Shown one piece after another: positions 35,777 through 42,628 of a DNA stretch of 64,000 nt (within the stretch, counting starts at the first letter, position 1; every line of letters begins with the position of its first letter). Where the stretch lies: the NCBI RefSeq assembly GCF_009805705.1, contig NZ_VSMB01000007.1, positions 62,001 to 126,000 of the forward strand, in the 5' to 3' direction. This stretch comes from Ruania rhizosphaerae. Its GTDB lineage: Bacteria; Actinomycetota; Actinomycetes; Actinomycetales; Beutenbergiaceae. The notes under the pieces were generated by a model. The model had not been told where the DNA came from, ran no database searches, and worked only from the letters and a program-made list of their open reading frames with translations. Position numbers and translations under genes: made by a program.

Positions 35777-35920
35777 CGTCCCTGAGTCTCGGCCTGCCAG
35801 GCTGCCGGCCGGGGACCGCCGAGTGGGACATCCGGCGCGACTCCTGATCAGGCGTATCACGCCGCCCCCCATCCCCTCATGGAGAGGTACGAGCACCTCT
35901 CACCGAGATTGGGGAACGTC

Positions 35921-38116
35921 ATGTCCGTGCAAGCCATGGGGCCCACCTACGCCGGAGGCACCGAACCCATCGTCAGCGGTGGGTACGACGTGCTGTATCT
36001 GCCCGACGTCAACAACCGCGAGCTGATCCGCCAGGGCGAGTCGCCGGTCTTCTACTACATCCCGAACCTGGTGCGGATGGCCCGCAAGGACGGGCCGGAT
36101 TCGGGCGACTACCTGTTCAACCTGGTGCGCTTCGCCGGCACTGGCGGGGAGGCCGTGATCGGATCGCCCGGCGAGGTGGCCGGCGGTGTGCTGACGTTCT
36201 CGGTCACCGGCGCCATCCCCGAGCACGTGCGCCGGCAGTCCGAGTCGCAGATCACCGCCAAGTACGCCGAGAGCGAGGACGTTTTCTGGGGGCTGAAGGG
36301 CCGCCGCAAGGAACCCACCTTCCGCCCGGCGATCATCACCGAGAACATCACATCGGTCTCCAACGTCTCGCCCACTTCCCGCGGTCTGCCGACACTGCCG
36401 AGCCCCGGCGGCTCCCGGTTCGCCTATCGCGGCACCGCCGGGCGGCCCCAGTTGACCCGCACCCGCGACGAGTCCGGCCCGCCGCCCGTCGCCGAAGACG
36501 GCAGCCCGGTGCTCACCGGCGGCAGCGGCTCCAACCTCGACCCCTGGTACTGGCAGATGCACGGCAACGGCAAGGGGTCGATCGTGCCCACCGGCACGCA
36601 CGCCTTCAGCGGGCTCATCGGTGCCTACCCGGCCGCGATCTGCTGGGAGGCCTTCCACGGCACTGCGTCCCCGTTGATCGTGATCCAGAACTACAAGCTC
36701 AAGGTGTGGTCGCCGGTGGTGACGCTGAGCATCGTCGGCAACTGGGACCGCGTGTTCGAGCACTTCTCGGCCGCCGCCTCCGGCCGCGCGTTCTGGGCCT
36801 CGGCGGATATCCAGACCGAGTTCAACAACATGCGCACCAACGGCACCATCGAGGTGGACCTCAAGGTCGACACCACGTTGCCCGGCTCGGAGGAGATCGC
36901 CCGTCGTCTGGACGAGAAGTCCAACCTCGTCTACGAGAAGTTCATGGAGCAGGCCAAGGGCATGATCTTCGATCCGCCGCCGCCCGAAGTCGAGGCCGCG
37001 GAAGCTGATAGTGGCTCCTTCACACCGTGGGGAGTGGGCGTCGCGCTGAAGTACCGCCGCGACACCACCCGACTGAACCTCGAGTACCACGAGACCCAGC
37101 AGTTCGCCTACCTGCAGGACCACACCATCTCCAGCTCGATGGCCGGCATGTTCGACGAGATCAAGGACGACCCGGAGGCTGAGCGCAAATACTTCCTCAC
37201 CGTCTATCTCGATGACTGGCCCCGCAAGCTCGCCCGCGTGGTGCGCCCGGTGGCCGCCTGGGAGGACGGCAATGTCGAGTTCCTCAGCGTGCAGGTCGGC
37301 TATCCCAACACCAGCGGTGAGATCCAGTGGGAGGGACACAGCTTCGCCGGACTGGAGGGCGAGGACGGATCCTGGAAGTACCAGACGGCGCAGAAGGTCG
37401 CCTCCGATGTGGCGAACGCCCCCGAGGACTGGTCCCCGGACAAGACCTTCGTCAAGCGCAAGGTGCACCTGGCCGAACCACCCAGCGAGGCCTCCGACCC
37501 GTACCGCCGCGTGCAGATCGACAACAACGTCATCGATCTCGACCCCGAACCCAACGGGCAGCTGCTCAACGACACCACGCTGGAGGTGCGCGCCGATACG
37601 GCAGGGCGCCTCGCCGTCGGGCCGGTCGAGCTGGGCGTGGTCCTCACCGACAACACCCAGAAGGTGGAGGCCGAGTTCGAGCCCGTCGATCCCGACACCC
37701 GCGAACCCCTCGGCCGCCCCTCGGTGCGCTTCTCCTGGGGTGAGGACGATCTGGACACCGACCGGTTCTGGACCGTGTTCACCTCCGACCCCGAGTTCCG
37801 CCCGTTCTACCGCTATCGCGTGCACGTGACCGTCAAAGGCACGCTGTTCGAGCCCGGGCGTTCGTGGTCCGGCGACTGGGAGTACAGCAGCGGCAACGGC
37901 CCGCTTGTGGTCAACGTGCCCCAGCCCGATCCCGAGCGCGGCGTGCGCTACGTCCCGGAGGAGCGCATCGCGCGGCTGCGGGGGATGATTCCCGACGGCG
38001 CAGGTTCTGCTGGTCCTGAGAGTTCCGCCGGTGCAGGTGGTCCCGACCATGCGGCCGGCGCGCGGACCGGCGTTCGTACCGGCCCGCCCGCCCGGTACCT
38101 CGACTACAGCCTCTGA
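35921..38116 (+). CDS. Large unrecognised protein, first gene of the caspase locus
   Basis: A 731-residue protein I do not recognise. It begins MSVQAMGPTYAGGTEPIVSG, then YDVLYLPDVNNRELIRQGES and FYYIPNLVRMARKDGPDSGD. It looks mostly beta (alternating polar/hydrophobic strands), with a Pro/Gly/Ser-rich linker (~165-215), a long region rich in aromatic and acidic residues, and an Ala/Gly-rich tail. It has no signal peptide, TM helix or catalytic motif that I can see. ATG 35921 has GGGGAAC upstream; ATG 35879 is in frame but poorly preceded. The next gene starts 8 bases after its stop and the caspase gene follows 14 bases later, so the three are one operon. Confidence 0.75.
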   Translation: MSVQAMGPTYAGGTEPIVSGGYDVLYLPDVNNRELIRQGESPVFYYIPNLVRMARKDGPDSGDYLFNLVRFAGTGGEAVIGSPGEVAGGVLTFSVTGAIPEHVRRQSESQITAKYAESEDVFWGLKGRRKEPTFRPAIITENITSVSNVSPTSRGLPTLPSPGGSRFAYRGTAGRPQLTRTRDESGPPPVAEDGSPVLTGGSGSNLDPWYWQMHGNGKGSIVPTGTHAFSGLIGAYPAAICWEAFHGTASPLIVIQNYKLKVWSPVVTLSIVGNWDRVFEHFSAAASGRAFWASADIQTEFNNMRTNGTIEVDLKVDTTLPGSEEIARRLDEKSNLVYEKFMEQAKGMIFDPPPPEVEAAEADSGSFTPWGVGVALKYRRDTTRLNLEYHETQQFAYLQDHTISSSMAGMFDEIKDDPEAERKYFLTVYLDDWPRKLARVVRPVAAWEDGNVEFLSVQVGYPNTSGEIQWEGHSFAGLEGEDGSWKYQTAQKVASDVANAPEDWSPDKTFVKRKVHLAEPPSEASDPYRRVQIDNNVIDLDPEPNGQLLNDTTLEVRADTAGRLAVGPVELGVVLTDNTQKVEAEFEPVDPDTREPLGRPSVRFSWGEDDLDTDRFWTVFTSDPEFRPFYRYRVHVTVKGTLFEPGRSWSGDWEYSSGNGPLVVNVPQPDPERGVRYVPEERIARLRGMIPDGAGSAGPESSAGAGGPDHAAGARTGVRTGPPARYLDYSL

Positions 38117-38123
38117 GGCAGTC

Positions 38124-41100
38124 ATGGCCACGCTCACCGTGCACGAGCACCCGCCCGGTTCGCCGGACCTGTCCGCGACCTTCGTCCTGAGCCGCACCCC
38201 GGCCCCGGCCGACCGCCTGACCGATCTGGTCACCTCGGCCACCCTGGCCCTGACAGCACAGCTGGGATCCGACCCGGATGCGGCCGGGCACACGGCACAG
38301 ACCGTCAGGTCCGTCCAGCTCGAGCTGCTCGGCGACGGCGAAGAGATCCTCGCCGAGCAGCTCACCACCGATCCATTCGGGCTGGTCGCCCTCAGCGTCA
38401 CCCTCACCGGGGCCGACGCCGTGGCGACGATGGAGTCCGTGCTCGCCGGCGCGCCAACCCTGCGCCTGCGAGCACGCGTCGAAGCCAACCCTGGCGACCC
38501 GGCACCGCCCGTCCCGCCCCTGACGGCGCACCTCGCCCTGGTGTGGGACACGCTCAGCGGGCAGGGCTTGGCCGAGTTCCGCTACGACGACCTGCTGGCC
38601 GCCGTCTCGGCCCTGCGGGAGGCGGGAGCGATCAGTGGCGGCGGTGACGAGGACTGGTTGGTGGTCGAGACCCTGCTGCTCGCCGCACGCTGGGTGCTGG
38701 AGCTCACCGATGACGGCGGCTGGCGGCTCGCCGCCACCAGACCACCGGAGATGACGGTCACCAAGGCGCTGCCCGTCTCGCGCGCAGGCAACCCGCGCGG
38801 GCAGGGACAAGCCGGATCTGGGACCGGCCCGGAGACTGGGTCGGGCGCAATCCGACCGCCGAATGAGGGGAACGCATCTGCGACCCAGGTACTCACTCGA
38901 CCCCTGACCGAGCTGGTCGCCGAGGCCGGCGGACCGGACGCCGTCGCGCATGTCGTGGTGATGGACCGCGGTCAGCTTCGCCCGCTGGCTCCGGTGCGCC
39001 GCACGCGTGGAACGCGTGGTCCGGGGCTCGCAGCCACGATGAAGATCGCTGCGTTCTCGCAGGGGGACAACCAGGTGAGCGCGCAGAGCATCACCGCCGC
39101 GCTGCGTCCGACTGCCGCCGCTCGCCCGTCGGTGTCGGCGATCTCGGCCGTGGCTGTGCGCCCCGAACTGACTCTCGCCCCGCTCGGCCTGGCCGAGGTG
39201 ACGCCCACTCGCCGCCCGGGACCCGACGTCGGCAGTGGTCAGTCCGTCGAGAACGGGGATTGGTGGAAGGACCGGTGGGACCTCGGCACGCGCTGGTATG
39301 CCCCCCGGCACCGACTCGCGATGCCGGCGGTGGTCGCTGACCCGGCCCAGAGCCCGTTCCGGTTCGAGATCACCTCCGAACCTGGGCACGGGCTCGACGG
39401 CCGGCCCGCGATCGCCGCCACGGTCACCGTCGAACTCGAGCGCGGTCCGTCCGCGGAGGCATCCGAGACCACCGACGAGCTCGAGCTGGTGCCCGAGGCC
39501 GAGACGACCTACCGGCTCTCGGTGCCCTTCCTGGACGAGGAAGGCCGCGCACGGCAGGAGTTGTTCACTGCGGAATCGGCGTCGTCGATCCCCGAGGGTG
39601 TGCGGCTGACGTTCCGGCTGCGGGACACGTGGGCACGCCTGGCCTACGGCGCCCTGAGTACCCCCGGCTTTCAAGCCGACCCGCCGCAGATCGTGGCCAC
39701 CACCACCTTCGGAGGCTGGCGTCGCACCCCGCAGGTGACGCTCACGGCGGCCGCTCTCGCCGGGCTGCCGAAGATCGCGAGTCTGGCGAAGAAGCGCTCG
39801 GCTCGCGCGAGAAGTCGAAACCTACCCGCTGCTCTTCCTACTCTGCACACTCTCGCCGGCGCGACCCTGCGGCCACCACTGCAACTGCGCGAGGACATGA
39901 GCATCATGCCCGTCCGCGAGGTCTGGGAGCAGATGGTCACGATCGACCGGCTCGACCTTGTCGTCCCCTGCGCCACCTACGGCGACGTCTACCGCTCCGC
40001 GGTGGACAGGGAGTCCACCGCTATCGGTTGCCAGCCGGCGATGCAGCTCGGGCAGATCGAGTACACAACCTACGAACCGGTCGAGGTCGCCGCCGCCGAA
40101 GGGTGGGCTCAGGTACTGCGCTCGCTGCGCACACCTGGCACGTTCCTGATCGTCCCGGATCGCTACACCGTCGGCTGGAGCGAACCGGACGCACCCCGCC
40201 CCTACACCCCACAGCTGCTCGTGCAGTCCACGATCGACATCGACAACCCCACCCAGATGCGATGCATCGTCGCGATCGGCCTCCAGGGCGACGTCCCACG
40301 CTACGTCCGGGCCCGGATCCTCGCTGAACTGCGCGATCTGCACCCCGAGCCGAGGCTGGAGCGCCCCGAGGACACCCACTACGCCCCGGATCTGACCCTG
40401 GTCGCGCCCGGCAGCGTGAGCGTCGACTGGGCGGCCACCTCCACCGGCTTCGACATCGTCTGCGAAACCGACATCGCCGGGCTGATGGCCCTCAAGGCGC
40501 TGCTGGACCGCGACGGCCTGCGTGGCAACGCCACCTGGCCGCTCCCCGGGAATGTGCGCGCCCGGGCGGACGTGATCGTCTCGACGGCGACCATCGCCGG
40601 CCCCTACGAGGCAGGGCCCGTGAACGTGAGACCGGACCGAGGATCCCAGCACCTCACCAATGCGGTGGCCGTTCCGGTCGCGGTGACCGGGCTGGAACGG
40701 GACGGCACCCCCGTGACTGCCGTGGACGCCGTCGTGGATCCGGGCCAGGAACTGACCGTGGCGAGCGAGGACTCCGACCCTGGGCTGCTCCCTGTCTACT
40801 CCCTCTCCTCCGCGGGGCAGCCGATCGAGGAGGTGCGCGCCTACATCGAGGACCTCGAGCTCGGCCTGGTCTTCGTGGCCACGGCCAAACCCTCGACGGC
40901 GGAGCTCACCGGCCTCGAGATCACCTCCCGCTTCGACGGGCGAGAGCTGGCACCGGTCACCCTCACCGACTCCGCCCGGCAGGCGGAGGTGCGCCTGCAC
41001 CTGCCGTTGACCAGCTACGTCGCGGACCCCGAGATCAGCTTCGAGATCCACCGCATCACCGACGAGGGCCGCATGACCGGACCCACGCAGACCTGGAAGG

Positions 41101-41147
41101 TGCGCACCCAGGGTGCTCTCGTCCCGGTCGACCCGGCACACAACTAG
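38124..41147 (+). CDS. Large unrecognised multi-domain protein, second gene of the caspase locus
   Basis: A 1007-residue protein without a recognised family. It begins MATLTVHEHPPGSPDLSATF and contains several segments that look like Ig- or fibronectin-like beta sandwiches (for example PFRFEITSEPGHGLDGRPAI; ELTGLEITSRFDGRELAPVT), separated by low-complexity Arg/Pro/Ala linkers (~235-285, 305-400). A central region (REVWEQMVTIDRLDLVVPCA, ~600-640) has more helix. No signal peptide or TM helix is visible. It lies 8 bases after the first gene and 14 before the caspase gene. A scaffold or sensor partner for the protease is a guess from gene order. Confidence 0.75.
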   Translation: MATLTVHEHPPGSPDLSATFVLSRTPAPADRLTDLVTSATLALTAQLGSDPDAAGHTAQTVRSVQLELLGDGEEILAEQLTTDPFGLVALSVTLTGADAVATMESVLAGAPTLRLRARVEANPGDPAPPVPPLTAHLALVWDTLSGQGLAEFRYDDLLAAVSALREAGAISGGGDEDWLVVETLLLAARWVLELTDDGGWRLAATRPPEMTVTKALPVSRAGNPRGQGQAGSGTGPETGSGAIRPPNEGNASATQVLTRPLTELVAEAGGPDAVAHVVVMDRGQLRPLAPVRRTRGTRGPGLAATMKIAAFSQGDNQVSAQSITAALRPTAAARPSVSAISAVAVRPELTLAPLGLAEVTPTRRPGPDVGSGQSVENGDWWKDRWDLGTRWYAPRHRLAMPAVVADPAQSPFRFEITSEPGHGLDGRPAIAATVTVELERGPSAEASETTDELELVPEAETTYRLSVPFLDEEGRARQELFTAESASSIPEGVRLTFRLRDTWARLAYGALSTPGFQADPPQIVATTTFGGWRRTPQVTLTAAALAGLPKIASLAKKRSARARSRNLPAALPTLHTLAGATLRPPLQLREDMSIMPVREVWEQMVTIDRLDLVVPCATYGDVYRSAVDRESTAIGCQPAMQLGQIEYTTYEPVEVAAAEGWAQVLRSLRTPGTFLIVPDRYTVGWSEPDAPRPYTPQLLVQSTIDIDNPTQMRCIVAIGLQGDVPRYVRARILAELRDLHPEPRLERPEDTHYAPDLTLVAPGSVSVDWAATSTGFDIVCETDIAGLMALKALLDRDGLRGNATWPLPGNVRARADVIVSTATIAGPYEAGPVNVRPDRGSQHLTNAVAVPVAVTGLERDGTPVTAVDAVVDPGQELTVASEDSDPGLLPVYSLSSAGQPIEEVRAYIEDLELGLVFVATAKPSTAELTGLEITSRFDGRELAPVTLTDSARQAEVRLHLPLTSYVADPEISFEIHRITDEGRMTGPTQTWKVRTQGALVPVDPAHN

Positions 41148-41161
41148 AGAAGGGAACCATC

Positions 41162-42628
41162 ATGTCCGGATACTCCGTGCACATCGGCCTCAACTACGTC
41201 GACCCGAACGCCTACGGCGGCTGGGACGGCGAGCTCGCCGGGTGCATCAACGACGCGACCGCGATGGAACAGATCGCGCTCTCCCACGGCTACCAGACCT
41301 CCTCGTTGATCGACTCCCAGGCCACCAGCCAGGCGATCATCGGCGAACTGGGGCGGCTGGCCCGCACCGCCCAGCCGGGCGACATGTGCCTGGTCACCTA
41401 CGCCGGCCACGGCGCACAGATGCCCGATACGACCGGCGACGAAGACGACGGCCAGGACGAGACCTGGGTGGCGTGGGACCGGCAGATCGTCGACGACGAG
41501 CTGCACCAGATGTACTCCCAGTTCAGCCCGGGCGTGCGGGTGCTCGTGATCAGCGACTCCTGCCATTCCGGCACCGTGGCGCGGATGATGGCCGCTCCCG
41601 AGCAGTCCCGGCAGCTGCGGCTGGTAGAACAGTGGCAGCCGCGTGCCAAGACCCGGCGGATGCCGATGGACGTGCAGATGCGCGACTACGAGGCGCGTCG
41701 CGGGACCTATGAGTTCGTGAAGAACCTCTCCGGTCCCAGCGAGAGCCGGTCCATGGCAGCCGAGCTGATCCTCATCAGCGGATGCCAGGACAACCAGGTC
41801 TCCGCCGACGGGGATGTGAACGGGCTGTTCACCGAAAAGCTGCTGCAGGTCTACGCCGATGGTGGCTTCAGCGGGGACTACCCGACGTTCCATCGCCGGA
41901 TCGTCGATCTGATGCCTCCGGACCAGACGCCGAACTACTTCCTGCTCGGAGCCTCGGCCGGCTACCAGGCTCAGGAGCCGTTCACCGTGACGACGCCCAC
42001 TGGCGGGGGCGGCGGTGGCGGCGCTGGGGGAGGCACTGGCGGAGGAGGCGGTGCGGGTGGGGGCAGCGCCGGCGGTGGAGGTAGTGGAACCACGACGCGG
42101 CCGACCGTGCGGTTGTGGTCGCGCGGGGAGGATGTGACCTACCTGCAGCAACGGCTGGATGCGCTCGGCCACTCGGTCGCCGTGGACGGGATCTTCGGCT
42201 ACGGCACCCAGAACGCGGTGCGTGAGTTCCAGCAGGCACAGGGCCTGACCGCGGACGGTGTGGTCGGTCCAGCGACGTGGGCGGCGCTGGAGGGTCAGCC
42301 GTCGCAGCCGGGTGGGCCTGCTCAACCCGGCGGACCGTCACAGCCTGGCGGGCCTGCTCAGCCAGGTGGACCCACGCAACCCGGTGGGCCGGGCCAGCCG
42401 TCCCAGCCCAGTGGCGGGCAACCGCAGTCACGCCCCACGCTCCGCTACGGAGACAAGGGTGAGCACGTGGTCTACCTGCAGGAGCGGCTCATCGCCTGGG
42501 GTCAGAACATGACGGCCGACGGCCATTTCGGGCCGCGCACCCAGTCGGCGGTACGCAGCTTCCAGAGCAGCAACGGGCTGACTGCGGACGGCGTGGTCGG
42601 TCCGGCGACCTGGGCGGAGCTGGGGTAG
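41162..42628 (+). CDS. Caspase-family (C14/metacaspase-like) protease with two peptidoglycan-binding-like domains
   Basis: A 488-residue protein. Residues 1-~275 form a caspase/metacaspase fold: YAGHGAQ carries the catalytic His83 and ISDSCHSG the catalytic Cys134. A Gly/Ser/Ala-rich linker (~281-313) leads to a PG_binding_1 domain (~314-379, ending TADGVVGPATWAALEG), then a (QPGGP) repeat linker and a second PG_binding_1 domain (424-488). No signal peptide is visible although PG-binding domains usually act outside the cell. ATG 41162 has AAGGGA upstream. It closes the three-gene operon. It could be an activatable cell-fate or defence protease; the trigger would presumably come from the two large partners. 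Fold assignment is firm, role unknown. Confidence 0.85.
   Translation: MSGYSVHIGLNYVDPNAYGGWDGELAGCINDATAMEQIALSHGYQTSSLIDSQATSQAIIGELGRLARTAQPGDMCLVTYAGHGAQMPDTTGDEDDGQDETWVAWDRQIVDDELHQMYSQFSPGVRVLVISDSCHSGTVARMMAAPEQSRQLRLVEQWQPRAKTRRMPMDVQMRDYEARRGTYEFVKNLSGPSESRSMAAELILISGCQDNQVSADGDVNGLFTEKLLQVYADGGFSGDYPTFHRRIVDLMPPDQTPNYFLLGASAGYQAQEPFTVTTPTGGGGGGGAGGGTGGGGGAGGGSAGGGGSGTTTRPTVRLWSRGEDVTYLQQRLDALGHSVAVDGIFGYGTQNAVREFQQAQGLTADGVVGPATWAALEGQPSQPGGPAQPGGPSQPGGPAQPGGPTQPGGPGQPSQPSGGQPQSRPTLRYGDKGEHVVYLQERLIAWGQNMTADGHFGPRTQSAVRSFQSSNGLTADGVVGPATWAELG

Follow-up and report, generated by a model that had tools for sequence, protein, structure and literature searches.

The locus described here lies in a 64,000-nucleotide stretch of the genome of Ruania rhizosphaerae (assembly GCF_009805705.1, contig NZ_VSMB01000007.1, positions 62,001 to 126,000), hereafter the window, and comprises three genes on the same strand, P1, P2 and P3 (Table 1), the last of which encodes a caspase-fold protease. 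The trio is a real, conserved and uncatalogued three-gene module. The intergenic gaps are 7 and 14 bases; an original prediction, made from the sequence alone, had given 8 and 14, of which only the second value stands.

Table 1. Features of the locus, in window coordinates
Feature	Position	Strand	Characteristics
P1	35921..38116	+	731 aa, uncatalogued; predicted beta-sandwich domains at about residues 440-670
P2	38124..41147 (start ATG 38124)	+	1007 aa, uncatalogued, modular, beta-rich; fastest-changing of the trio
P3	41162..42628	+	488 aa, caspase-fold protease with two PG_binding_1 domains
P3 Peptidase_C14 domain	41207..41932	+	residues 16-257; His83, Cys134
P3 first PG_binding_1	42122..42289	+	residues 321-376; preceded by a Gly-rich linker
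P3 second PG_binding_1	42431..42622	+	about residues 424-487; preceded by a QPGGP-repeat linker; limits from the tblastn match to homologues
Promoter-like element GTATCA-N16-CTC	35854..35878	+	67 bases 5' of the P1 start codon

Conservation of the trio and properties of its proteins

The order P1, P2, caspase was intact in all 18 distinct loci in which it could be judged, from two phyla. These comprised 14 loci of clade A (defined below), the window, two more genomes of the same genus and Deinococcus taeanensis; L018, L019 and L020, which duplicate L028, L046 and L041, were left out of the counts. The original prediction had proposed that the protease has dedicated partners and that recurrence of the gene order be checked, and the order bears this out. 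The distances of P1, P2 and P3 co-varied over 17 loci (Spearman 0.74, 0.66 and 0.66), none of 2000 Mantel permutations being as high, and in a family comparison no further gene was common to all 19 loci compared.

Homologous loci were collected with a seven-row alignment, A1, which gave 23 loci in a search of 84,980 species genomes. The single P1 sequence found no relative among genome contigs; it had relatives in a few whole genomes and, among plasmids, in one record (Deinococcus taeanensis), annotated in order as hypothetical protein, hypothetical protein and caspase family protein. A profile of alignment A2, searched in 396 genomes of the phylum, recovered only the own genome and, besides it, a single partial match. 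Fifteen of the 23 loci constituted clade A, represented by Arthrobacter, Nocardioides, Tessaracoccus, Arachnia, Aestuariimicrobium, Antribacter, Allorhizocola and two metagenome-assembled genomes, with identities to the window of 62-70% for P1, 31-40% for P2 and 50-56% for the caspase. The remaining eight, clade B, were from Microbispora (seven) and Amycolatopsis (one), with P1 about 32% identical. The three genes were found in order in 14 of the 15 clade-A loci, and the fifteenth, L037, was not judgeable because its sequence breaks off within P2, 1.2 kb past P1; in clade A the caspase thus stands beside P1-P2 wherever this can be judged.

P3 was matched by Peptidase_C14 of Pfam (6.4e-25, 88.6 bits versus a gathering score of 21.4) and, in two stretches, by PG_binding_1 (7.4e-40). 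Its residues 3-277 match PDB 3bij along its length (1.7e-72), and His83 and Cys134 were present in 16/16 aligned homologues; the caspase dyad and the two PG_binding_1 domains had been recognized in the original prediction. As judged from its sequence, the caspase domain is unremarkable, a relative of the GSU0716-type bacterial caspase (PDB 3bij), to which, as to other bacterial metacaspases, it is linked by the 3bij match and the His/Cys dyad. P3 and its homologues differ from that type by one or two additional PG_binding_1 domains and by their tie to P1-P2. Among the anti-phage defence models of PADLOC, P3 matched the generic caspase model (6.1e-12) and otherwise just Cas3b, at chance level. 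Endolysin PHROGs matched residues 308-488; P3 shares the PG-binding domain of phage-type endolysins without a wall-cutting catalytic domain, as Pfam matched only C14 and PG-binding models.

Caspase matches were detected in 26 of 394 genomes of the same class, and those above 50% identity were limited to the own genome and G101, both with the trio. Six others, at about 43% identity (40-44%), are stand-alone caspases of actinobacterial genomes; the 16-20 kb around each gave no match to P1, to P2 or to a PG-binding domain. Caspase is thus a common protein, and it is the PG-binding fusion that goes with P1-P2. The fusion as such is already published: 11 metacaspase sequences (1.6%) with a putative peptidoglycan-binding domain were reported in a survey (PMC3501461), the available portion of which describes the same domain pair as in P3 and mentions neither P1-P2-like partner genes nor a sigma-factor link.

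Neither P1 nor P2 reached a cut-off in Pfam, NCBIfam, PADLOC or PHROGs or gained a well-known function, in agreement with the earlier claim that they belong to no recognizable family. In Pfam, P2 had no match whatever and P1 a single one below threshold (P2_Phage_GpR, E 0.24); NCBIfam and PADLOC 2.0.0 gave no match for either; PHROGs gave one sub-threshold match for P1 (tail protein, E 0.16) and none for P2; and among PDB sequences there was none for P1 and one, not credible, for P2 (E 2.2). Kinship between P1 and P2 was not detectable (hhalign probability 0.3%). The AlphaFold2 models had a mean pLDDT (predicted local confidence) of 59 for P1, good only at about residues 440-670, and of 75 for P2. 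According to these models, P1 and P2 would be strings of beta-sandwich domains with no clear relative; the Foldseek and VIA-align lists consisted mostly of Ig/FnIII, pilin and adhesin domains, at similarity levels common for any beta-sandwich.

The best 19-residue Kyte-Doolittle means within the first 40 residues were 0.32, 0.31 and 0.30 for P1, P2 and P3 of the window; in this hydropathy check, which is not a signal-peptide predictor, no protein had a hydrophobic N-terminus, and the earlier remark that no signal peptide is visible holds to that extent. The 19-residue peaks anywhere were 1.15 (P1) and 1.51 (P2). Among 22 P2 homologues the highest was 2.24, a value at which that one homologue could conceivably hold a membrane segment.

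Between the window and L017, the synonymous divergence (dS) and the ratio of nonsynonymous to synonymous divergence (dN/dS) were 0.35 and 0.10 for P1, 0.84 and 0.31 for P2, and 0.80 and 0.17 for P3. Since dS of P1 is less than half of that of P2 and P3, the unequal values of these neighbours suggest that P1 and P2-P3 differ in recent history in one of the two lineages (a mosaic). A fast-changing P2 would suit a recognition part.

The exchangeable third gene

The third gene beside P1-P2 is swappable, being a caspase, a papain with PG_binding_1 or a hemopexin-repeat protein. No caspase match was found in any of the eight clade-B loci, which carry P1-P2 all the same, so that the caspase is dispensable as a member of that system, contrary to what had been proposed; in all eight, a hemopexin-repeat protein (Pfam 2.8e-35) is encoded 5' of P1-P2. 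In L021, a papain with PG_binding_1 is followed by P1-like (hhalign 4.4e-20) and P2-like (1e-12) proteins. The presence of PG_binding_1 on two protease folds next to one and the same pair is the best indication that this domain is important for the P1-P2 system.

A second papain gene of L021 (L021:14455-15309, opposite strand) is 61% identical to that beside P1-P2. A papain-like protein 46% identical to the L021 papain is encoded in a second Amycolatopsis locus (L105:13288-14508), directly 5' of the regulatory genes ECF, X and CHAT described below, with no P1 match nearby. Distant P1 relatives occur in tandem in L022 and L023, in L022 beside a CHAT gene; a stretch of one of these relatives, P0005, looks OmpA-like by eye, with no match in Pfam. 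The idea that a 276-aa clade-B protein and the C-terminal part of the hemopexin-repeat protein are wall hydrolases was unsupported by PDB and family searches.

The ECF-X-S8-CHAT gene set and the GTATCA element

Genes for an extracytoplasmic function (ECF) sigma factor, a small protein X (about 155-168 aa) and a TPR-CHAT protease lie on the same strand directly 5' of P1 in 7 of the 15 clade-A loci (L026, L027, L029, L031, L032, L033 and L034). They are preceded by an S8 subtilase gene in four of the seven; of the rest, L026 starts too near the contig end, and L029 and L033 have another gene at that position. All eight clade-B loci hold S8, ECF, X, CHAT, the hemopexin-repeat protein, P1 and P2 together, with CHAT on the opposite strand. 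The regulatory set therefore adjoins P1-P2 in 15 of the 23 collected loci.

In the window genome the ECF, X, S8 and CHAT genes lie on another contig (C43). Within its genus, the CHAT set was present in 3/3 trio carriers versus 1/5 genomes without the trio, and a CHAT match was obtained in 12 of 14 searched clade-A genomes. In 20 CHAT loci from other genomes (L086-L105), which were picked by their CHAT match, the four-gene set was found whole or mostly in all, a member being undetected in three. ECF-X-S8-CHAT is thus a widespread actinobacterial system that exists independently, the trio being one of the things it adjoins.

The set's subtilase carries near-perfect tandem hexapeptides ahead of the catalytic domain, with a sequence that differs per lineage, in 14 of the 25 subtilases surveyed. 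The repeat is PLIETN x5 in the own genome (contig C43, L049:6448-8013), and PYYAGV, MPYYVS, PYWDPV, GYGDGV, PYTQPH and others, or spaced GHKPM (L046), elsewhere; repeats were also found in L027, L031, L032, L034, L046, L087, L088, L089 and L095-L099. The copies within L049 and within L031 differ in their DNA by silent changes only, so the peptide is under selection. The hexapeptide was rejected as a cleavage site in the trio or CHAT proteins, since no four-residue piece of it occurs in these proteins of the five genomes tested.

GTATCA was the most enriched hexamer upstream of the ECF operons, in 12 of 15 versus 0.31 expected in simulated sequence; the 15 operons were one per genus, and the three same-genus copies dropped carry GTATCA too. 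It also precedes 6 of 9 distinct subtilase-first operons and, in one of these, lies just past the guessed start. Before the trio it was found in 4 of 12 upstream regions, namely those of the window, L016 and L017 (one genus) and of L036, against a background of 0.016 per 300 bases, with distances to P1 of -67 in the first three and of -77 in L036. A matrix was trained on 11 operons of other genera, picked for holding GTATCA; the window element scores 7.1 bits on it, with 0.042 chance matches expected per 300 bases, and the corresponding expectations are 0.006 for L017 and 0.0009 for L036. Apart from one weak distant match in L044, seven other trio upstream regions gave nothing notable with the matrix. 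The upstream DNA of L017 has otherwise diverged, but the stretch from GTATCACGCC onward is conserved. The shared hexamer is suggestive of a link between the window trio and the ECF set. The link of the trio to a protease-gated sigma factor is good by adjacency in the relatives and suggestive in the window.

Proposed mechanism, known systems and alternatives

The nearest caspase systems are the actinobacterial EACC1-caspase and EACC2-caspase-ECF conflict systems, which in the available text of PMC7159879 and PMC8195603 combine an invariant partner with effector parts that vary; the parts that define these systems were not detected in the present locus. The EACC1 caspase model of NCBIfam gave 29.5 bits for P3 versus a cut-off of 140, and the single transmembrane segment of the EACC1 partner is not matched by P1 or P2 of the window, given the hydropathy peaks above. 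No EACC2 alpha+beta domain is seen before the caspase in P3, where the 3bij match starts at residue 3; no EACC2 model was searched. As to the ECF sigma factor and TPR gene found near EACC2 caspases, ECF and TPR-CHAT genes adjoin P1 in the seven clade-A loci mentioned, not in the window itself. In contrast to the EACC systems, the P1-P2 partners are constant here and the protease varies.

The regulatory set may resemble type III-E CRISPR in having a TPR-CHAT protease gene beside an ECF sigma factor gene; there, according to the available part of PMC10028731, Csx29, a TPR-CHAT protease, cleaves Csx30, which inhibits an ECF-like sigma factor (CASP-sigma). A CHAT domain is present in the ECF-X-CHAT core, and the CHAT profile reaches Csx29 chains only weakly (E 0.007-0.009); X is much shorter than Csx30 (565 residues), and the cargo here is P1-P2 plus a protease. 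No Cas7-11 was noticed, no search aimed at Cas7-11 or Csx30 having been made. Literature searches, with subscription journals mostly outside their scope, found, among the records listed (in one search the first ten of 679), no publication on P1-P2 or on the ECF-X-S8-CHAT set, none joining CHAT with an S8 family serine peptidase or with subtilase and sigma factor in actinobacteria, none joining metacaspases with peptidoglycan binding and Actinobacteria or orthocaspases with peptidoglycan binding, and only PMC10028731 pairing extracytoplasmic function with the CHAT domain.

The preferred reading, with a probability of about 0.4, is that the trio is an effector module that can be induced, is armed with a protease and is controlled by a proteolytic switch of ECF and CHAT. 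The adjacency of the regulatory set to the module is observed, and so is, genetically, the fixed partnership of P1 and P2, whose products may form a complex. For the function, target and location of the module we infer the following. By analogy with Csx29, an activated CHAT or S8 protease would remove X, a putative anti-sigma factor; the ECF-X-CHAT parts correspond to those of type III-E, X taking the place of the inhibitor Csx30. The freed ECF factor would then transcribe P1-P2-caspase, and the assembled cytosolic product would act on envelope breach or lysis, the PG-binding domains then reaching the wall.

Several observations weigh against the effector module under such a switch. P3 carries PG-binding domains without a visible export signal. 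Of 59 relatives, 29 have a CHAT protein; the trio is therefore missing from most carriers of the switch. For trio genomes in which the set is not adjacent, the association with CHAT is 9/11 versus 26/56 relatives (p 0.032, uncorrected for kinship); both trio-bearing Arthrobacter genomes had no CHAT match, and on the Deinococcus plasmid the CHAT-TPR gene is about 13 kb off, matches at only 2.7e-13 and has neighbours unlike the core. X matched no Pfam family. Eight of the 12 trio upstream regions have no GTATCA within 300 bases; the own genome contains 14 copies of GTATCA-N16-CTC versus 8 of the reversed control, so that the pattern alone is not specific; and the own genome's ECF operon has CACCTG, not CTC, at that spacing.

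Bacterial caspases are numerous, yet few have known partners or targets. Here a caspase has two partner families of its own, absent from the catalogues and conserved in two phyla, the protease is swapped for one of unrelated fold beside the same partners, and there is a testable transcriptional switch made of further proteases. The trio and its neighbours hint at an undescribed protease-controlled response in bacteria; if the effector-module reading is true, it would provide a defined substrate-and-trigger system for asking what bacterial caspases do, and would give P1 and P2 a function and a place in the family catalogues.

A proteolytic cascade is an extension that we regard as doubtful, in which the hexapeptide-bearing S8 protease and TPR-CHAT would gate the ECF factor and thereby P1-P2 with an exchangeable wall-directed caspase or papain, each protease activating the following one through the hexapeptides, as sites or as signal. 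If this is true, bacteria would possess a counterpart of caspase cascades, outside the catalogued systems.

Regulated proteolysis inside the cell, with P1 and P2 as substrates or inhibitors of the caspase and PG_binding_1 docking a cytosolic partner without wall contact, is given the same low standing as the cascade. The lack of a hydrophobic N-terminus in all three proteins and the conserved dyad fit it, as do the six stand-alone relatives, from whose lack of PG domains it follows that these domains came with the P1-P2 partnership. Nevertheless, the attachment of PG_binding_1 to proteases of two unrelated folds next to P1-P2 suggests a common target that lies outside the protease, and the clade-B loci retain P1-P2 without a caspase.

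Only slightly less probable, and still unlikely, is a surface assembly, exported unconventionally or released by lysis, in which P1-P2 would be an adhesion-like scaffold with the protease, papain or hemopexin protein as cargo. Hemopexin and PG_binding domains are usually found outside the cytosol, and Ig/FnIII, pilin and adhesin domains dominate the structure lists of P1 and P2, at the levels common to beta-sandwiches noted above. A phage-tail-like or contractile injection particle with the protease as cargo is improbable: P1 has just one match in Pfam and one in PHROGs, each far below threshold and naming a tail protein, but P2, P0009 (the clade-B P1) and P0004 have no PHROG match and no tail genes recur among the families common to the 19 compared loci. 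A housekeeping metacaspase with chance neighbours, to which an ordinary caspase domain found alone in six genomes would correspond, is very unlikely indeed, the order being intact in 18/18 loci of two phyla with differing flanks.

Upstream of the trio, the neighbouring gene (window:33917-35776) has a weak Heparinase II/III C-terminal match (2.5e-07); it is also present in L016, and in L017 another gene is found in its place.

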